Shown in pieces: positions 54,750 through 64,000 of a stretch of 64,000 nt of DNA. Source of the stretch: Nitrospiria bacterium. GTDB lineage: Bacteria; Nitrospirota; Nitrospiria; JACQBZ01. The notes under the pieces were generated by a model. It saw only the letters and a program-made list of their open reading frames with translations. It did not search any database and had not been told where the DNA came from. The position numbers and the translations under genes are program-made. The stretch spans positions 1 through 64,000 of the forward strand of contig DATIYJ010000024.1 of the NCBI GenBank assembly GCA_035517655.1. Reading direction: 5' to 3'. Positions within the stretch are counted from its first letter, which is position 1. Every line of letters starts with the position of its first letter.

Positions 54750-56390
54750 GTGTCTTCTGTAAACATCATGGAGAGCATATTCAAAAATCCCGGGCGTTGG
54801 GTCAAAACCCACACTCCTTTTTTTGAAATCGGTTCATCCGCACGGAGCGCCTTCGTCCGTTTTCTGGTTGTTTGCCTGACCCTTGCTTCGACCGTCTCTT
54901 CCGGCCGGCCTGAAACTTCCGCGCTCTCTCTTGAGGACCAGATCGCCCGAGCACAGTCGGAGCTCGCGCTCATTAAAACGGAAATTATTCATCGGTATCA
55001 GTCCAACACCGCCGAGTTGGAACCATCGGATCCGTCGGCCGTCCGATCCTCACATCCGGAGACGAGGAACATTGTTGCGGAGGGGGAACTTTCCGGAGAC
55101 GGAGCCTCGCAAAGCATGGAGGCCAGGCTACGGGAAATAGCCGTCCTGATAAAACGCTTGGAGACGGGGGGCGATTCCTCTTTATTGTTCAATGAGGTCG
55201 GTCCGCCTTCGACCGATGAGATTCGGCTTTTGTTGGCGGATCGTCTGCTGCAGGCGAATCTTACTTCCCAGGCAGAGCAGGTACTGAACAATGTGGTGGT
55301 TCAAACCCGTCGTGCGCCGATCGCGGCCGAGGCGTGGTTTCGATTGGAAAAATTATACTATCGGAAAGGCGATTATCCCCGCGCCCTTGGGGCGTTCTTC
55401 AAGATTCCAATGGATAAGACATTTCCGTGGCGACAGGAAGCCACCTACTTGGCCGGCAACAGCGACCTTTATCTTAAGGAGTATCTCAAGGCGATCGACC
55501 TCTTGGGCAATGTCGGCGAAGGCAGCGAGTACTATCCTTTTGCGGTGTATTCAAGCGGCCTGGCCTACCTAAATTTGGGAGATGCCTGGTCTTCGACTCA
55601 GTTACAGTTTCAAAAACTCACCGCGTTGAATCCGGGAGAGGATTCCGTCCTCCGGGAATTAATCAACAAGACGCGTGTGACCCTCGGATTTTTCTTCATC
55701 GATCAAAAACGCTATTCGGAAGCCATGGCCGTCTTCGAAGCGATTCCTTCCGAGAGCCGGTATTGGGTCCAGGCTCGCTTCGGGCTTGGCAAGGTTTTTA
55801 TGGGTATCGGGGATTGCGTGAAAGCCATCGTCGTCTACAACGACCTGATCGACCAGGCGCCCACCCATCCTTATGCCCTTGAATCCCGCCTCCAGATCGG
55901 TGCTTGTTATTCAAAATTGAGTGCCTACCATCGGGCCGTGGGCAGTTATCAAGAGGCCTTAAAAGCCTATTCCGAACGATCGGAGGGCTTAAAAAAACTG
56001 ACCCAACAAATTCAGGCCACGGGCGTGGAAAGTTGGCTTTTTGCATCGGGAGTGGAGAAGACGGAAACGGGGTTCGATCTGGAACCCGGATTTGCGGAAT
56101 TAGTGGACATGTATACCGATTGGCTTCGACTGCACAAAGAGATCGCCGAGCCATTCCAAGGGGATAAAAATCATGCACCGCGCGAAACGGAGCGCGGCTC
56201 GTTGGCGGACGATAAATCGCTTCAGATGAAAATGGAGGATGTCCACGAAGATTTGATCCGATTACTCCGAGCCTCCGCAACCCGCCATCTTTCGTTCCAA
56301 CTGGCCCGGATTGACGGACTGGCCCTCCGTGCGAATATGGGCATCGCCAAGAATATGACATTCATGCAGGACCATGAGACGGCGCCGTAG
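54750..56390 (+). CDS. Exported TPR-repeat protein of the Exb-type gene cluster
   Basis: A 546-aa protein that opens the cluster. A hydrophobic segment (SAFVRFLVVCLTLASTVSSG, about 31-50) acts as signal peptide or anchor. A helical region then leads into TPR repeats between about 150 and 420 (EAWFRLEKLYYRKGDYPRAL; IDQKRYSEAMAVFEAIPSES; QARFGLGKVFMGIGDCVKAI; SKLSAYHRAVGSYQEALKAY). The C-terminal 120 residues are helical and non-repetitive. The GTG at 54750 or the ATG at 54768 may start it. It overlaps the next gene by 17 bases. Periplasmic scaffold is the likely role. Confidence 0.8.
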   Translation: MSSVNIMESIFKNPGRWVKTHTPFFEIGSSARSAFVRFLVVCLTLASTVSSGRPETSALSLEDQIARAQSELALIKTEIIHRYQSNTAELEPSDPSAVRSSHPETRNIVAEGELSGDGASQSMEARLREIAVLIKRLETGGDSSLLFNEVGPPSTDEIRLLLADRLLQANLTSQAEQVLNNVVVQTRRAPIAAEAWFRLEKLYYRKGDYPRALGAFFKIPMDKTFPWRQEATYLAGNSDLYLKEYLKAIDLLGNVGEGSEYYPFAVYSSGLAYLNLGDAWSSTQLQFQKLTALNPGEDSVLRELINKTRVTLGFFFIDQKRYSEAMAVFEAIPSESRYWVQARFGLGKVFMGIGDCVKAIVVYNDLIDQAPTHPYALESRLQIGACYSKLSAYHRAVGSYQEALKAYSERSEGLKKLTQQIQATGVESWLFASGVEKTETGFDLEPGFAELVDMYTDWLRLHKEIAEPFQGDKNHAPRETERGSLADDKSLQMKMEDVHEDLIRLLRASATRHLSFQLARIDGLALRANMGIAKNMTFMQDHETAP

Positions 56391-59300
56391 AAAAAATCAG
56401 TGGAGTCGGGATTCCGCCCCGCTGGCGTGGATGGTGCTTGTTGTGACCGCGCTATGGATTGAACTGGGCGGGTGTTCTTCTTATCGAAAACCGGACGAAT
56501 TGGACCCGCAAAAGATTAAAACTGTTGTGACAGAAGTGATGGAAGATCAGACCGCTCCCGCTTCCAAAGACTATACGCTGAAATCTCTGGACGAATATGA
56601 GAAGAATCTCTTCAACGATTTCGGGCAACGGAGTGAGCTCCGAGCCAAAACCATGCATCGGTTGGCCGATCTCTATCTTATGCTGGAGGACTTGTCCTAT
56701 CGTCATCAGCTTCAACGATACAACCAACAACTCCGCCAAGTGCAACAGAGCCGAGTGGGGGCGCGTCCGGTCCTTCCCCAAATCGATCATACGCGTTCCC
56801 GGAAGACCTATGAAAAACTACTGGCCCAGTATCCCGACCGGCCTGAAAATGATCGGGTGCTCTATCAGTTGGCTCATGTATATGACGATGAGGGTCAGAC
56901 GGAACAGGCGATGGCTTCGTTGCAACGACTGGTGGAGCGTTACCCTTCCAGCCCGTTGCGGTTAGAGGCGGTCTTCCGGCTGGCCGAGGCGTATTACGAT
57001 TCGAATCAATACCGACAGGCGAGGGCCGCTTATGAACAGGCGGTCAACGCGAAGGATCCCGGTCTCGCGGAACAGGCGATGTATAAGTTAGGCTGGACCT
57101 ATTTTTCGCTTCAGGATTATGAGAACGCGGTGGCGATGTTTGTTCGTCTGGTCGATCGGAAGCGCGTGATGAAACCCGACGGACAGTCGCAGCTCGATCC
57201 AAAGGTCATGTCGGCCGCAGAATGGGATGAAGTCTTGGAATGGATTCGCAGCATGGCCCTTTCTTTTTCATATCTGGGGACGCCGATTAAGATCCAAGAT
57301 TATTTCGAAAAAACGGGCCACCGGGATTACGAAGCGCTCATCTATCGGAAACTAGGCGATCTGTACATTGCCCAGAAACGGGTGCAAGATGCGGTAGGGG
57401 CTTATGATGCCTTCATCAGAACCTATCCCCTCCATCCCGATGCCCCCGCCGTGCAAATGCAGATCGTGGAAGCCTATCAACAGTTAAAATTGGTGGATCT
57501 GGCCAACCGCGCTCGGATGAATTTCGTGGATCGGTTTGGTGAAGGAAGCCTCTGGTATCAAAAGGCCTCGGTCGACGCGCGAGAGAAGGTCCGGCCGTTC
57601 TACCGGGGACTTGTCGGCCAACTGGCCCTGTTCTACCACTCTGAAGCCCAGCAAACCAAACGGCCTGCGGATTATGAAACGGCTTTGGCATGGTACCGAC
57701 GCTACCTGAAGGTGTTTCCGAAAGAGCCGGATGCGCCGCGGATGAACTTTCTCTTGGCGGAGGGTCTCTTTGAACTGCAGCGTTACAGCGAAGCCGCGGA
57801 CGAATATGAGCATACCGCCTACAATTATTTTCTTCATCACGACAGCGCCGAATCGGGATACGCCTTTATCACCACGCTGGATAAAATGATGAGTCGGGAC
57901 GGTCAATCCTCTGCCACAAGCCCCCTGGCCACCCGACTGGCCCAGAGTTGCAAGCGGTTTGCGGAGGCCTTCCCCAATGACGCCCGCGTGGCGGCTGTTC
58001 TTTGGAAAGGGGCCGAGACCTACTACCGCGTGGGGAACTTCCCGGGGGCCCGTTCCATGGCCGAGATGATTGTGAAGACCACGCTGCCGTCCGATAACGC
58101 CGCATCCAAAGCCCAGCGACTGATCGCCCAAACCTATTTCGAATCCGGGGCGTACGAGCAGGCCGCCGGGGTCTATCAACGCTTGGTTCGGAGCGGAGGG
58201 GAGGCGAAAGAGGAGAAGGCGTTGAGACAATTATGGGCTTCGGCGCTGTATAAGCAGGGCGAGGTCTTTAAAAACGCCGGCAAGTTGCGGGAAGCGCAGA
58301 CGGCGTTCATGCGGGTTCAGGCGGAAGTCCCGGGGAGTGAGGTTGCGCCGGTGGCGCTGTACGATGCGGCCAGCGTGGCCCTGCTCCGAAACAACGTGGA
58401 CGAGGCGCTGCAGCTGTTTCAGATTCTGGTTCAACGCTATCCCGCACATTCGTTAAGCCAAAAAGTCCCCGAGGTCTTATTGCAGGTGGAGCGAAATCTT
58501 TTGGAGGCCGGGAAAGTTCAGGAGGCCCGGGCCTTGTCGGAGAAGATCAAAACGATCCAGGTTTCAACGGAGGAGGATTTAGCGTATCGGTCCGAACGGC
58601 TCCTGGCGGATCGCTATTTTGAGGAAAAGGCCTATGAGCAGGCGGCCGCCACTTACAGCAAATTAGCCCAAGGTGAAGCCTCGGTCAAGAATCAAGAGCG
58701 GGAAGAGCTAAAGCGATTGTGGGCTTCCGCCTTGTACAAACAAGCCGAAGGTCTCAAGGCGGCCGGAAATCTTAAGGAGGCGCAAGACGGTTTTATGAAG
58801 GTTCAAGCGGAGGCAGCCGGAAGCGAAGTGGCGCCGGTGGCGCTGTTTGATGCCGGAAACGTTGCCCTCTCTCGGAATGATCAAGACGGGGCGGTCCAGG
58901 CTTTTACGATCTTGCTGAGAGAATATCCCACCTCCGCCTACAGTCCTCATGCAACGATCCAAGTGGCCCGAATCCATGAACGAAACGGCCGTTTGCAGGA
59001 GGCTGCCCGAGACTATGCATCTGTGGTAAAATTAAACCTGGATCGAAAGACCACAGGGGAAATGTTACTGGCATCCGGTCGGCTTTACGAACAACTGGGA
59101 GATTGGGCGAAAGCCGAAGAGGTTTACGGCATCTATCTTGGTCAATATTCGGGAGAGTATCAACAGGTCGTCGAAACAACGTTTAAGCTGGCCTGGGCGA
59201 AACTCCAGCAAAACCGTCCGCAGGAAGCCCTGCCGATTCTCCAGACCATTATCGACCGATACGGACAGGGTGATGCGGCGGCATCCCCGGCGGCCTACTA

Positions 59301-59778
59301 TGTCGCCAAGGCACATTTATTGAAAGCGGATAACCTCGCGACCCAGTTTGACGCCGTGCGGCTCGTTTCGCCTCTCGAACAAAACCTGGCCCGGAAGAAG
59401 GCATTGCTGAAAGACGTCCTGGAGGAATACGCCCAGGCGGCCGACTTCAATGTCGCCGAGGTCACGACGGCCGCCACCCAGAAAATCGGGATGGTGTTCG
59501 AAAAATTTCGAACCGCCCTCCTGGAATCCGAGCGACCACAGAATTTAACACCCCAGCAACTGGAGCAGTACAATTTTCTTCTCGAAGAACAGGCCTATCC
59601 GTTTGAAGAAAAGGCCATTGCGGCGTATGAAAGCAATGTTCATCGAGCGCAACAGTTGGGTTTGTACGATGCCTGGATCAGGCAGAGCTACGACGATCTG
59701 GCGCGGTTGATGCCGGCCCGGTACCGTAAGCCGGAACTGGACGAAATTATCCATGGGGAACCGGCCTTAAACCCATGA
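56374..59778 (+). CDS. Giant TPR lipoprotein (1134 aa) of the Exb-type gene cluster
   Basis: A large lipoprotein: basic start MRRRRRKNQW, hydrophobic segment MVLVVTALWIELGGC ending in a lipobox Cys, then TPR repeats over nearly its whole length. Clear repeats include NDRVLYQLAHVYDDEGQTEQ, PLRLEAVFRLAEAYYDSNQY and EQAMYKLGWTYFSLQDYENA. A long unit is duplicated inside: LWASALYKQ at about residue 620 and again near 782, each followed by a FMxVQAExxGSEVAPVAL stretch. Length and architecture resemble the TPR components of myxobacterial gliding and YbgF/Tol-like systems. Probably outer-membrane anchored on the periplasmic side. It overlaps the next gene by four bases. Confidence 0.85.
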   Translation: MRRRRRKNQWSRDSAPLAWMVLVVTALWIELGGCSSYRKPDELDPQKIKTVVTEVMEDQTAPASKDYTLKSLDEYEKNLFNDFGQRSELRAKTMHRLADLYLMLEDLSYRHQLQRYNQQLRQVQQSRVGARPVLPQIDHTRSRKTYEKLLAQYPDRPENDRVLYQLAHVYDDEGQTEQAMASLQRLVERYPSSPLRLEAVFRLAEAYYDSNQYRQARAAYEQAVNAKDPGLAEQAMYKLGWTYFSLQDYENAVAMFVRLVDRKRVMKPDGQSQLDPKVMSAAEWDEVLEWIRSMALSFSYLGTPIKIQDYFEKTGHRDYEALIYRKLGDLYIAQKRVQDAVGAYDAFIRTYPLHPDAPAVQMQIVEAYQQLKLVDLANRARMNFVDRFGEGSLWYQKASVDAREKVRPFYRGLVGQLALFYHSEAQQTKRPADYETALAWYRRYLKVFPKEPDAPRMNFLLAEGLFELQRYSEAADEYEHTAYNYFLHHDSAESGYAFITTLDKMMSRDGQSSATSPLATRLAQSCKRFAEAFPNDARVAAVLWKGAETYYRVGNFPGARSMAEMIVKTTLPSDNAASKAQRLIAQTYFESGAYEQAAGVYQRLVRSGGEAKEEKALRQLWASALYKQGEVFKNAGKLREAQTAFMRVQAEVPGSEVAPVALYDAASVALLRNNVDEALQLFQILVQRYPAHSLSQKVPEVLLQVERNLLEAGKVQEARALSEKIKTIQVSTEEDLAYRSERLLADRYFEEKAYEQAAATYSKLAQGEASVKNQEREELKRLWASALYKQAEGLKAAGNLKEAQDGFMKVQAEAAGSEVAPVALFDAGNVALSRNDQDGAVQAFTILLREYPTSAYSPHATIQVARIHERNGRLQEAARDYASVVKLNLDRKTTGEMLLASGRLYEQLGDWAKAEEVYGIYLGQYSGEYQQVVETTFKLAWAKLQQNRPQEALPILQTIIDRYGQGDAAASPAAYYVAKAHLLKADNLATQFDAVRLVSPLEQNLARKKALLKDVLEEYAQAADFNVAEVTTAATQKIGMVFEKFRTALLESERPQNLTPQQLEQYNFLLEEQAYPFEEKAIAAYESNVHRAQQLGLYDAWIRQSYDDLARLMPARYRKPELDEIIHGEPALNP

Positions 59779-60479
59779 CCCGCTGCGGTTTCAGGAAAAC
59801 GCGCTTCATTCCAGCCCTTCTGAGGGCCACGCTGGCAGGGGCCATTGTATTTGGGGCGATCGGCTGCGCCCCGGTGAATATTCCCAGTGGTTCGGCCGCC
59901 CGGAGCCCCGCGAATAACGAGGCGCCCGGCTCCCAAACCGGCTTGCCGGGAAAGGGGGGGCTTCGTTCGCGTTACGGGCAGGGGATCTCTTATTTGGAAC
60001 AGGGAAAGCTAGAAGAGGCTCAAAGGATTTTTGAGTCTCTGGTTCAATCCAATTCCGATCGGATGGAGATTCATAACGCATTGGGGATTCTTTATCGCCG
60101 ACGGGGGATGTTGGACAAGGCTGTTGCGGAGTACACGAGGGCGATCGAGTTGTCCGAGCCGTTGTCGTCGACTCCTTCGGGGCGCGCCGAATCCGCCGAA
60201 CTGTACAACAATCTGGCCATCGCCGATCGTGAACGCGGCGATTTTCGAAAGGCGGAAGAGGCGTATGAAAAATCCATTAAACGCAACCCCGATTTTGCAG
60301 CCGCCTATTACAACCTGGGCGTGCTGTACGATCTCTACCTCGACCGACCTTCGGACGCCGTGCGGTGCTATCGGGATTACGAACGACTGACCGGTCAGAA
60401 TCAGACCGTGGATGTCTGGATCGCGGATCTGGAACAAAGGACGACGCGCGGGACGGGAGGCCCCGTTGGGAAGCCGTAA
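59775..60479 (+). CDS. TPR lipoprotein of the Exb-type gene cluster
   Basis: A 234-aa lipoprotein. The signal region LLRATLAGAIVFGAIGC ends in a lipobox Cys; after a Ser/Gly/Pro-rich linker come three TPRs (GQGISYLEQGKLEEAQRIFE; IHNALGILYRRRGMLDKAVA; YNNLAIADRERGDFRKAEEA; AAYYNLGVLYDLYLDRPSDA). It overlaps the 1134-aa gene by four bases and the next small gene by 14 bases. Its role is probably scaffolding in the periplasm beside the other TPR proteins. Confidence 0.87.
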   Translation: MTRCGFRKTRFIPALLRATLAGAIVFGAIGCAPVNIPSGSAARSPANNEAPGSQTGLPGKGGLRSRYGQGISYLEQGKLEEAQRIFESLVQSNSDRMEIHNALGILYRRRGMLDKAVAEYTRAIELSEPLSSTPSGRAESAELYNNLAIADRERGDFRKAEEAYEKSIKRNPDFAAAYYNLGVLYDLYLDRPSDAVRCYRDYERLTGQNQTVDVWIADLEQRTTRGTGGPVGKP

Positions 60480-60840
60480 CATCAAGCGGAGGGTGCTCGG
60501 AATCGTTGCGACGGTCTGGCTGGCCGCCGCCGGGTTGGCGTATGCCCAGGAGCCGGCGGAAGCGACGCGGAAAAACCCCGACACTTTCCAATTGAAGGAA
60601 ACCGAAATTACGGGAAAATTAAAGGACGTCCTGGGGTCCCTCAAGCTGTTGGAAACCGAAGTGGTCGGGACGGTCGAGCGTCCGCGGTTGAGTTATTCGT
60701 TGCCTTGGAAGGATCCCGATCCGTTATTGCTGGATGAAGGGGAGATGCAAGGCGTGTTTCTCGAGGAGATTTACACCCCGTTGGATAAAGACACCTACAG
60801 CCAAGCAATACGGTCGGAGAAGGCGCGTCAGGCTCCATAA
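60466..60840 (+). CDS. Small exported protein of unknown family in the Exb-type cluster
   Basis: A 124-aa protein with signal peptide MGSRNIKRRVLGIVATVWLA followed by AAGLAYA and likely cleavage before QEPAEA. The mature part has two similar short units, FQLKETEITGKLK and LKLLETEVVGTVERPRLSY, then SLPWKDPDPLLLDE and FLEEIYTPLDKDTY. No family is recognised. The TTG start is chosen because GGGAGG lies five bases upstream, inside the preceding gene. It sits directly before exbB and is probably a periplasmic partner of the motor. Confidence 0.72.
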   Translation: MGSRNIKRRVLGIVATVWLAAAGLAYAQEPAEATRKNPDTFQLKETEITGKLKDVLGSLKLLETEVVGTVERPRLSYSLPWKDPDPLLLDEGEMQGVFLEEIYTPLDKDTYSQAIRSEKARQAP

Positions 60841-60857
60841 AACGGAAAGGAGACCCC

Positions 60858-61547
60858 ATGGATATTTTTAATGTCATCGGCAATTTTTTTATTGAGGGCG
60901 GGTTTTTCATGTACCCCGTCCTTTTCATCGCCGCTCTGGGAACGGCCATTGTGATCGAGCGGATGCTCTATATCACCCGCGCTTCGGCCAACGCGGAATC
61001 TCTTTGGCAAAAAGTCCGGGCCGCCCTGTCGGATCAACGGATAGACGACGCCGTCAAGCTCTGCCATTCCAGTACGCGCCCCATCTATCGCGTGTTGTCG
61101 GCGGGCTTGAAGGCGGCGAAACCTTCGGGCGCGCGTGAACCGATCCAGCGATCGATGGAAGAGGCCATGTTGGAGGTCTTGCCGCCGCTGGAGCAGCGGA
61201 CGGCGTACCTTCCGATTCTGGCCAACGTGGCGACCTTGTTGGGACTGTTGGGAACAATCATCGGCGTGATCCAGGCCTTTTCGGCCGTCTCCGCCGCGGA
61301 TCCCTCGCAAAAAGCCGTCCTCTTGGCCCGCGGAATCTCGGTCGCACTTAACATGACCGCCTTCGGTTTGATGGTTGCCGTTCCATTGATCCTGTTTTAT
61401 GCATTCCTACAATCCAGAACCACGAAGATTGTCGATTCGCTGGATCAATATTCGACGAAGCTGATCAACTTTTTTGCAAATCGTCAGACGGGGGTTACCC
61501 CGGAGAGGAGTCAAGGACATGCTGCCGCGGTCCCGAAGACGAGCTAG
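60858..61547 (+). CDS. MotA/TolQ/ExbB proton channel family protein
   Basis: A 229-aa inner-membrane stator protein. Helix 1 is YPVLFIAALGTAIVIERMLY (about 14-35), followed by a long cytoplasmic loop; helices 2 and 3 are VATLLGLLGTIIGVIQAFS and NMTAFGLMVAVPLILFYAFL. The Thr residues lining the proton path in TolQ-type proteins are present in GLLGTIIG and NMTAFGL. It forms a pentamer around two ExbD-type subunits in the family; here two different ExbD-like genes follow directly. Overlaps the first by 29 bases. Confidence 0.92.
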   Translation: MDIFNVIGNFFIEGGFFMYPVLFIAALGTAIVIERMLYITRASANAESLWQKVRAALSDQRIDDAVKLCHSSTRPIYRVLSAGLKAAKPSGAREPIQRSMEEAMLEVLPPLEQRTAYLPILANVATLLGLLGTIIGVIQAFSAVSAADPSQKAVLLARGISVALNMTAFGLMVAVPLILFYAFLQSRTTKIVDSLDQYSTKLINFFANRQTGVTPERSQGHAAAVPKTS

Positions 61548-62019
61548 ACGGATGGAGTCCACCGAGATCGATCTGACCCCGTACATGAATCTGTTGGTCG
61601 TGTTGGCGCCGTTTCTCCTCATCACGGCCGTATTTACCCGGTTGTCGGTTCTGGAGATCTATTTGCCGCCTCCGGCATCGGCCGAATTAATGAGCACGTT
61701 GCCGTCGCCCGAAGAACAGCTGGTTCTCACGATATCGATCACGGAGAAAGGCTTGGTGGTGGCCAACGGGAACAAGATCATCAGTTTGATTCAGCCGACC
61801 GTAACGGGGCACGACCTGCCGGCGCTCACGGCCGTGCTTGAGCAGATCAAGGCCCGGTTTCCGACGGTGGACAACGCGATTGTTCTCAGCAAACCGGATA
61901 TTCCGTATAATGAACTGGTTCAGGTGATGGACGCGACGCGGGTCGCTTTTGTAGTCACCGAAGGGAAGAAGACCAGTTATTCGTTGTTCCCGAATATTTC
62001 TCTGGGAGAAATCCAATGA
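61519..62019 (+). CDS. ExbD/TolR-like protein lacking the membrane Asp
   Basis: A 166-aa ExbD/TolR protein. A very basic cytoplasmic tail (MLPRSRRRARRMESTEIDL) leads to a single helix TPYMNLLVVLAPFLLITAVF and a periplasmic domain (EEQLVLTISITEKGLVVANG; PYNELVQVMDATRVAFVVTE). At the place of the proton-carrying Asp in ExbD and TolR (TPLVDVVLVLL-type motif), this protein has Asn24 (codon 61588-61590). The ATG is preceded by GAGGAG. It overlaps the second ExbD-like gene by four bases. Confidence 0.9.
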   Translation: MLPRSRRRARRMESTEIDLTPYMNLLVVLAPFLLITAVFTRLSVLEIYLPPPASAELMSTLPSPEEQLVLTISITEKGLVVANGNKIISLIQPTVTGHDLPALTAVLEQIKARFPTVDNAIVLSKPDIPYNELVQVMDATRVAFVVTEGKKTSYSLFPNISLGEIQ

Positions 62020-62537
62020 GAAGAAGCCCGATACGGCCCCGGTCTCGATTCTCGGAACGCCGGAAGGGATCCACGACGGTTTCTACGGTCTTAACCCTCA
62101 CCTCGCTCGTGGACCTGTTTACGAACCTGGTCCTGTTCCTGCTCTATAATTTTTCGGGGGACGCCTCGGCCATTCCTTCCGCCGAACGGATGAAACTCCC
62201 CGAATCACTGGCCCAGTTAACGCCGCAGACAACCTTGACCGTCATGATCACCCAATCCGATATTCTTGTGGACGGAGTAAAGGTGGCCGAGATCCCTCAG
62301 GTCTTAAAGGAGAGCGATCTTTTGATTCCGGCCCTCAAAAAAGAAATGGACTATGCGGCCGAGAGGGGGAAATATTTTGCAAATCCCAGCGCCGGCAAGC
62401 CCTTTGAAGGTCGGGTCACGATACTGGGAGATAAAAATATTCCGTTTCGATTGCTGGAGAAGGTTATGTATACTTGCAGCCAGGCCGAGTTCGGGCAGAT
62501 TGACCTCGCCGTGATTCAGAAAGAGTCCACCGGATGA
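62016..62537 (+). CDS. Second ExbD/TolR-like protein with the membrane Asp
   Basis: A 173-aa ExbD/TolR-type protein. A basic tail (MRRSPIRPRSRFSERRKGST) leads to the helix LTSLVDLFTNLVLFLLYNF, with Asp33 (codon 62112-62114) at the expected proton-carrying position. The periplasmic domain (TTLTVMITQSDILVDGVKVA; VTILGDKNIPFRLLEKVMYT) matches the family. Unlike its neighbour it keeps the Asp, so it could be the active half of a heterodimer. It overlaps the genes on both sides by four bases. Confidence 0.9.
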   Translation: MRRSPIRPRSRFSERRKGSTTVSTVLTLTSLVDLFTNLVLFLLYNFSGDASAIPSAERMKLPESLAQLTPQTTLTVMITQSDILVDGVKVAEIPQVLKESDLLIPALKKEMDYAAERGKYFANPSAGKPFEGRVTILGDKNIPFRLLEKVMYTCSQAEFGQIDLAVIQKESTG

Positions 62538-63574
62538 TTTCGATTTGGGGCGGCCAAGACGGCGACCAAGAGTTTAAACGTATCGCCTGGGTCTGCGTTT
62601 TTGTGTACGGTGCAGTGGCTCTGATCCTCAACCTTCTGACGGTCAAAATACCCGCGCGATCGGACTACACCCGGATCGATCCTCGCATCGCCAAATTAAT
62701 CATCGAAGCTTCAAAACCCGTATCCCCTCCCGTCCCGAAGGTGAAGAAAGAAGAACCGAAAGTCGAGGACAAAGGCAAGACGGAGAAAAAAGCGGAGCCC
62801 AAATCCGAACGGCCCAAAGAGCCGGCTCCGGAAGTGGCCAAACAGGAGGGACCCACTCCCGAAGAAATACGGGCACAGCAAGAAGCCCTGCGTAAAAAAA
62901 ACATGGAGGTGGCGATGAACAGCGGGCTGCTCAAGCTTCTCAAGCAGACCGCCGCCAAAGCGGACAGCATACCGGATCAAAAGCTGAAAAAAGTTTTCTC
63001 CGAGATCAAGGGTCTTAGCGAAGCGCCCAGGACAACATCCGGCGTGGCCCCTCAAACCCAGCCCACCGCCAGCCAAGGAATTGATGATATCGTGTCCAAG
63101 CTTGAAAAATCGATCAAGGCATCGGACGGGACTTCAGGAGATTCGACCTTGGGCGGCAGCGGCGGGATCGGTCAAATGATCGGAAGCGTTCAGCCGGACC
63201 TGGGATCATCGTCCCTTGCGGAACGGAAAACCACACGGGTGGACAGCCCATTTCAGATCAAAGGCTTTGAAGAGGGCAAGAGTCCGAGAGATTATGAGTC
63301 GATCGCGCAGGTGGTCGATTCGTACAAAGACGGGATCAGTTTTCTTTACAATAAGACCCTTCGTGAAAACCCGACGCTCCGGGGTACGGTGACGGTCGAA
63401 TTTATCATCGCCGCCGCCGGCGAAGTGATCGACTGTCATGTGGTGTCCAGCTCGGTGAAGAATCCGCCGTTTGAAGAGGCGTTGATCAAACGAGTTCTGC
63501 AATGGAAGTTCCCGCCTGTTCCCTCGGGCGACGTCACGGTGACCTACCCGATCGTGTTTTCCGTTTCTGGATAA
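62534..63574 (+). CDS. TonB-like protein with AgmX/PglI C-terminal domain
   Basis: A 346-aa protein. One N-terminal helix (IAWVCVFVYGAVALILNLLT) is followed by a long Lys/Glu/Pro-rich periplasm-spanning stretch (about 60-130), a Ser/Gly-rich linker, and a C-terminal TonB-like domain: GTVTVEFIIAAAGEVIDCHV and VLQWKFPPVPSGDVTVTYPI. This domain is the AgmX/PglI C-terminal type known from myxobacterial gliding proteins. It would couple motor movement to the outer membrane. Last gene of the cluster. Confidence 0.9.
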   Translation: MISIWGGQDGDQEFKRIAWVCVFVYGAVALILNLLTVKIPARSDYTRIDPRIAKLIIEASKPVSPPVPKVKKEEPKVEDKGKTEKKAEPKSERPKEPAPEVAKQEGPTPEEIRAQQEALRKKNMEVAMNSGLLKLLKQTAAKADSIPDQKLKKVFSEIKGLSEAPRTTSGVAPQTQPTASQGIDDIVSKLEKSIKASDGTSGDSTLGGSGGIGQMIGSVQPDLGSSSLAERKTTRVDSPFQIKGFEEGKSPRDYESIAQVVDSYKDGISFLYNKTLRENPTLRGTVTVEFIIAAAGEVIDCHVVSSSVKNPPFEEALIKRVLQWKFPPVPSGDVTVTYPIVFSVSG

Positions 63575-63611: not shown

Positions 63612-64000
63612 TCACTTGGGCCGTGAATGGCATCGCAAACAATCGGCGAACGGAAAGGCCACCACGCCGTGGCACCGGCCGCAGTATTCTCCCTTGATGA
63701 TCCGATCCATGCTTACCGGGTTGGCTCCTTGTTTCATGATAAAAATGGAAGGATGGCAGTTATTGCAGTTGAGCCACATCGTGTGAGGCGTATGCGGGAA
63801 GACGACGTTGGGCACGGGATAGGCATCCCCGATGTTAAACACGATGTCCAGGTTTAAAATCGGACCGTCCGGGGGGCCGCTCGGATCAATCGAACTTCTG
63901 GGTTTGAGGATTCCTTCTTTGAGAGCGGCCACCCAATCGACATCCCCCGTCTGTCTTTTAGGAAGCGCACGGAAGGCAATCGGATGTCCTTGCGCATCCA
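63612..64000 (-). CDS. Nanowire-type triheme cytochrome c (c7-like), 5' part outside the window
   Basis: The frame stays open to the window edge, so the gene continues beyond position 64000; at least 129 residues are inside. Three CxxCH motifs are visible (CNNCH, CGRCH, CLRCH) near the C-terminus in the pattern FPHTPHTMWLNCNNCHPSIF, then NPVSMDRIIKGEYCGRCHG and VAFPFADCLRCH. This arrangement matches the c(7)-type triheme domain found in repeated form in multiheme cytochromes. The N-terminus, signal peptide and any further domains are unseen. It converges on the TonB-like gene. Confidence 0.88.
   Translation of the reverse strand, partial: DAQGHPIAFRALPKRQTGDVDWVAALKEGILKPRSSIDPSGPPDGPILNLDIVFNIGDAYPVPNVVFPHTPHTMWLNCNNCHPSIFIMKQGANPVSMDRIIKGEYCGRCHGVVAFPFADCLRCHSRPK

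Follow-up and report, generated by a model that had tools for sequence, protein, structure and literature searches.

An eight-gene operon in the window (the whole 64,000-nucleotide stretch of Nitrospiria DNA analysed here) encodes two adjacent ExbD/TolR-type subunits, the first of which (D1) has Asn at the position of the family's proton-carrying Asp, whereas the second (D2) has Asp. The replacement is conserved among orthologues and is accompanied by linked changes in D1, in the pentamer subunit AglR and in D2. The best reading of these observations, to which we assign a probability of roughly two in three (0.68), is a core-complex motor of the composition AglR5-D1-D2 with one proton site per axle.

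The operon (54750-63574, plus strand) consists of touching or overlapping genes in the order TPR protein, 1134-aa TPR lipoprotein, 234-aa TPR lipoprotein, small protein, AglR, D1, D2 and TonB-like protein (Table 1). The genome has 2.65 Mb; among named relatives a Nitrospirae MAG from groundwater (L037) is the closest, with 80% identity in AglR. D1 and D2 overlap by ATGA (62016-62019), and D2 and the TonB-like gene likewise at 62534-62537; the 4-nt ATGA overlap between D1 and D2 was present in 48 of 76 loci. D1 and D2 were found, together with the TonB-like gene, in all 46 loci with full flanks. The gene order was fixed in every complete locus, D1 always preceding D2. A partial ORF on the minus strand (63612-63998), which encodes a multihaem c-type cytochrome with the CxxCH motifs CNNCH, CGRCH and CLRCH, converges on the operon.

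Table 1. Features of the operon (aa, amino acids; full-flank loci, n = 46)
Feature	Position	Strand	Evidence
TPR protein, GltC position, 546 aa	54750..56390	+	TPR Pfam matches; homologue in 37/46 full-flank loci
Large TPR lipoprotein, GltD position, 1134 aa	56374..59778	+	TPR repeats; homologue in 44/46 full-flank loci
GltE-like TPR lipoprotein, 234 aa	59775..60479	+	homologue in 44/46 full-flank loci
Small protein, signal-peptide-like N-terminus, proposed TTG start at 60467	60467..60840	+	within ORF 60412-60840
AglR/TolQ/ExbB-type pentamer subunit	60858..61547	+	PF01618, 97 bits; alignment to TolQ; conservation
D1, AglQ-position ExbD/TolR subunit, 166 aa, Asn24 and Pro31	61519..62019	+	PF02472; TolR alignment; model
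Asn24 codon AAT (D1, proton-carrier position)	61588-61590	+	sequence
Pro31 codon CCG (D1, +7 from Asn24)	61609..61611	+	sequence
D2, AglS-position ExbD/TolR subunit, 173 aa, Asp33	62016..62537	+	PF02472; invariant Asp; model
Asp33 codon GAC (D2), single conserved proton carrier of the pair	62112-62114	+	sequence; invariant in orthologues
TonB/GltG-like transducer, 346 aa, AgmX/PglI-type C-terminal domain	62534..63574	+	NF033768, PF03544; in 46/46 full-flank loci

The products were compared with the NCBIfam equivalogs GltC, GltE and GltG, which were built on Myxococcus gliding proteins. All three comparisons gave scores under the respective cut-offs: the GltE-like protein matched GltE with E 2.5e-13 (49.8 bits of 225), the TonB/GltG-like protein matched GltG with E 1.6e-20 over its C-terminus only (73.2 bits of 650), and the match of the GltC-position protein to GltC was weak (E 0.0018, 17 bits of 450). 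The TonB/GltG-like protein scored 85 bits with NF033768 (AgmX/PglI C-terminal domain), above the cut-off of 40. No GltG match above the cut-off was obtained in the deltaproteobacterial genomes G116, G117 and G118, which represent one phylum. The small protein matched no Pfam family; in 36 of 80 loci a homologue was found in the corresponding position, and the gene may be the 'additional gene' that Luciano et al. described for core complexes outside myxobacteria. In gene content the operon matches the AglRQS-Glt 'core complex', an operon type that is already known.

The sequence-only reading had described two adjacent ExbD-like subunits, with Asn24 in the first and Asp33 in the second. Both residues and the ExbD family membership were confirmed by the sequence, by PF02472 and by alignment with TolR, and the system, which that reading had not identified, is an AglRQS-Glt core complex and not a generic ExbBD. 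Asn24 lies in the D1 helix IDLTPYMN24LLVVLAPFLL and Asp33 in the D2 helix LTLTSLVD33LFTNLVLFLL, each at the proton-carrier position; the hallmark Asp of the ExbD/TolR transmembrane helix is absent from D1 and present in D2. In a phmmer alignment Asn24 paired with Asp23 of E. coli TolR. Both subunits passed the PF02472 cut-off of 25.4 bits (D1 53.6, D2 32.4). The NCBIfam equivalog cut-offs for TolR and ExbD were not reached (D1 at best 23.3-23.6 bits against 127-162; D2 13.7), nor were those for TolQ and ExbB by the window system. AlphaFold2 models of D1 (pLDDT 85) and D2 (pLDDT 83) predicted a single transmembrane helix (residues 20-45 and 28-46, respectively) plus a periplasmic domain. The best PDB matches of the models in Foldseek, with modest scores, were TolR 5by4 for D1 (E 2.5e-3) and the ExbD periplasmic domains 8pek/8vgd for D2 (E 6e-4). 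Other ExbD paralogues readable in the window genome and in related genomes all had Asp, and none had the Pro found seven residues downstream in D1.

Orthologues were collected in two ways. With D1 as query, 27 D1 sequences were obtained from 116 related genomes; 26 had Asn and one had Asp, and all D2 partners had Asp. To avoid bias, we gathered a larger set with an AglR query, whose matches do not depend on the Asn. This yielded 80 loci, mostly from gammaproteobacteria with some from Nitrospirota and deltaproteobacteria. Further genomes from the deltaproteobacterial phylum and from that of the window were then added, which brought the survey to 137 systems (Nitrospirota, gammaproteobacteria and Desulfobacterota-type bacteria). 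First-pass motif matches in L002, L004, L204 and L205 came from wrong ORFs; on re-reading, L002 and L204 had Asp. The key residue of D1 was Asn in 110 systems, Asp in 16, Ser in eight, Cys in two and Thr in one, i.e. other than Asp in 121 of 137, while D2 had Asp in 131 of 131. Asn24 is therefore neither a chance occurrence nor a lone mutation. The split between the subunits that was noticed in the window is thus kept in the orthologues.

Several members of the collection deserve separate mention. The variants with Ser (L054, L138, L140, L142, L145, L146, L151, L080), Cys (L141, L143) and Thr (L164) are mostly deltaproteobacterial, and all retain the Pro at +7. Two genomes contain two separate core-complex systems each, G016 (L015, L034) and G011 (L017, L033); in G016 one system has an Asn-type and the other an Asp-type D1, which shows that a single genome can hold both motor types. 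Locus L148 (genome G143) sits on a long branch and consists of a Glu-containing ExbB next to a single divergent ExbD with Asp; a second ExbD was not recognised. It is probably not an AglRQS system but another one that the AglR profile happened to match. One scan of genome contigs for Myxococcus and Bdellovibrio sequences yielded none, and a plasmid search for them returned homologues from Vibrio and Fusobacterium only.

The nature of the D1 residue proved to be linked to other positions. Pro at +7 from the key residue was present in 120 of the 121 non-Asp D1 sequences, in one of the 16 Asp-type D1 sequences and in none of 131 D2 sequences. Between +1 and +14 the D1 helix contained no other ionisable residue, except for a Glu at +14, at the helix end, in three Ser-type rows of one lineage; the lack of Asp in 121 of 137 orthologues is not made good by another conserved ionisable residue of the helix, and the refutation foreseen in the sequence-only reading therefore failed. 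Alignment of the window AglR with TolQ showed that the channel threonines are retained: Thr133 corresponds to T145 and Thr167 to T178, both are invariant in AglR alignment A1, and the T178 equivalent was Thr in every Asn- and Asp-type AglR row tallied. Where TolQ has Glu173, the window AglR has Val162 (codon 61341-61343). In TolQ, Glu173 is the start of a simulated water chain that passes T145/T178 to the TolR Asp (PMC12583513). Among 120 systems with non-Asp D1 the equivalent AglR position was occupied by Val, Leu, Thr, Met, Ile or Ala and never by Glu (0/120), whereas Glu was present in 10 of the 16 Asp-D1 systems.

When all alignment columns were scanned without bias for residues confined to the Asp-D1 lineages, three positions ranked highest outside D1: AglR column 189 (Cys), AglR column 185 (Glu) and D2 +2 (Leu for Phe). 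Column 185 is Val162 of the window protein, and column 189 is Met166, immediately before Thr167, the T178 equivalent. By analogy with MotB M34 (PMC10659934), D2 +2, which is next to the Asp of D2, is predicted to lie at the dimer interface. Covariation with AglR is by itself no proof that D1 and D2 share one pore.

To follow the history of these changes, a tree was calculated from an alignment of AglR, D1 and D2 that lacked the key column of D1 and both trait columns of AglR. On this tree at least four origins of Asp-D1 fall within the non-Asp clade (L034; L174-175; L144 with L176-179; L110 with Nevskia and Solimonas), in addition to the outlier L148, and a single Asp-D1 clade was rejected (AU p 5e-66). 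The AglR Glu was gained three times, always on Asp-D1 branches, which make up 10% of the tree length; the chance probability was about 0.001 in a branch-length test that excluded L148 and was devised after the pattern had been seen. A stricter pairwise comparison on the tree comprised only five pairs and was underpowered (median p 0.25). Since Asp-D1 is nested inside the Asn clade in this sample, which has no Myxococcus at its deeper root, the direction of change would appear to be from Asn to Asp.

The sequence-only reading had raised the possibility of an asymmetric motor with a single proton path, and the linked changes at D1 +7, at the AglR E173 equivalent and at D2 +2 make this the best explanation. 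The shared pentamer and the proton stoichiometry we infer: a D1-D2 heterodimer would sit in one 5:2 complex, with proton flow through D2 alone, about five protons per turn and force output to the outer membrane. By homology, five pentamer subunits would stand round two helices. The AglR pentamer would enclose an obligate heterodimer in which protons are taken up and given off by the D2 helix alone, at Asp33. The Asn of D1 (elsewhere Ser, Cys or Thr) would be permanently neutral and mimic a protonated Asp, much as MotB D22N has been described as a protonation mimic (PMC9389320), and D1, its helix marked by the conserved proline, would serve as a passive arm. The Glu at the proton mouth of AglR would have been lost along with the second proton site. 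In a Santiveri-type scheme, in which both sites must be neutral for the motor to turn, a D1 that is always neutral would give one proton per 72 degrees and five protons per turn instead of 10. The motor would pull on the TonB/GltG-like transducer and on TPR lipoproteins reaching the outer membrane.

Two arguments can be raised against a motor with one Asp. In the turnstile model charge alternates between both sites (PMC9389320), and a fixed neutral site should then stall rotation. In M. xanthus, the AglQ D28N replacement was reported to abolish proton conduction, motility and sporulation (PMC3858216), so one Asp is insufficient there. The earlier statement that each ExbD subunit needs its Asp is borne out by this report for M. 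xanthus AglQ, and it is evidently no general rule. Given the reported effect of D28N on the M. xanthus motor, a bare change of Asp to Asn is not sufficient, and the Pro and the AglR changes may be what lets the one-Asp form work.

The same data could also come from an ordinary AglR5-D2-D2 motor with two Asp, in which D1 is a separate scaffold or regulator, e.g. a plug, a peptidoglycan anchor or a partner of the TonB-like protein. D2 is invariant and sufficient as an ExbD by itself, and according to a review (PMC9389320) it is not known if AglQ pairs with AglS or each of them with itself. We nevertheless consider this arrangement unlikely: D1 retains a full ExbD helix under strong constraint (Asn, Ser, Cys or Thr, with Pro at +7), changes at its key residue go together with changes in the AglR proton path and at the predicted interface position D2 +2, and D1 and D2 are tightly coupled in translation, as would suit production in equal amounts.

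Even less probable is that the proton function of D1 was lost by relaxed selection and that the motor tolerates a relic in the making. The occurrence of other small uncharged residues (Ser, Cys and Thr) would suit such a drift, but Asn prevails over three phyla, the Pro is nearly invariant, the genes are intact and in fixed order, and the returns to Asp come with loss of the Pro and gain of the AglR Glu. These features indicate strong rather than relaxed selection on D1, and simple decay was rejected. We give the least credence to the idea that the second proton is carried by another residue of D1 or AglR. The window D1 does have an Asp18, six residues before Asn24; this candidate was rejected because the position varies among orthologues, which have His, Asn, Gln, Lys or other residues there. 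Moreover, the D1 helix lacks a conserved ionisable residue, and the AglR Glu was lost, not gained.

Should the AglR5-D1-D2 reading with one proton site be correct, it would call into question the view that motors of this kind depend on two identical proton carriers. The models for MotAB, ExbBD and TolQR start from a pair of equivalent Asp residues that act in turn, at 36 degrees per proton. A widespread natural one-site family would separate these models, as strict charge alternation predicts that the motor stalls, and the both-sites-neutral scheme that it runs on half the protons per turn. The question of AglQ/AglS hetero- or homodimers is touched as well, because two D1 helices together would lack any proton site. 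A ready list for mutagenesis is provided by the linked residues, namely Asn and Pro at +7 in D1, Val for Glu in AglR and Phe at +2 in D2. For a still wider proposal the arguments seem to us evenly balanced: that most sampled non-myxobacterial AglRQS-type core complexes are natural half-motors with an obligate heterodimer axle, one proton site, about five protons per turn, 72-degree strokes and a kinked neutral arm, a form long kept, with at least four reversions to the two-site form (Asp, usually without Pro, often with the AglR Glu). No earlier report of a conserved loss of the proton carrier in one of two ExbD subunits, or of the linked signature, was found in the searchable literature, which mostly leaves out subscription papers, and prior notice is possible.

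Among known systems, AglRQS-Glt of Myxococcus xanthus is alike in having AglR followed by two ExbD-type genes, and the core complex in having, in one cluster, GltC/D/E-like TPR proteins, a GltG-like TonB-type protein and a small extra gene. The core complex was described with an extra gene in gammaproteobacteria and Geobacter and in scattered form in Myxococcus, and no function is known for it beyond the myxobacteria (Luciano et al. 2011, PMC3169522). Their list omits Nitrospirota, whereas the core complex was present in this phylum in our survey. The M. xanthus motor differs at the key position: AglQ has Asp28, where window-type D1 has Asn, Ser, Cys or Thr, and both AglQ and AglS have Asp according to a review (PMC9389320), these residues being taken from papers. 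The 5:2 motors TolQR and ExbBD share with the window system the pentamer and ExbD/TolR families, the channel threonines and the periplasmic folds matched by the D1 and D2 models. Their solved structures contain a homodimer axle with two Asp, whereas the window system has two different genes and one Asp, and TolQ has E173 where the window AglR lacks Glu. MotAB is alike in carrying the proton-binding Asp on a central dimer within a pentamer; MotB, however, is a homodimer. The window system lacks an OmpA-type domain and has Asn naturally in one subunit only.
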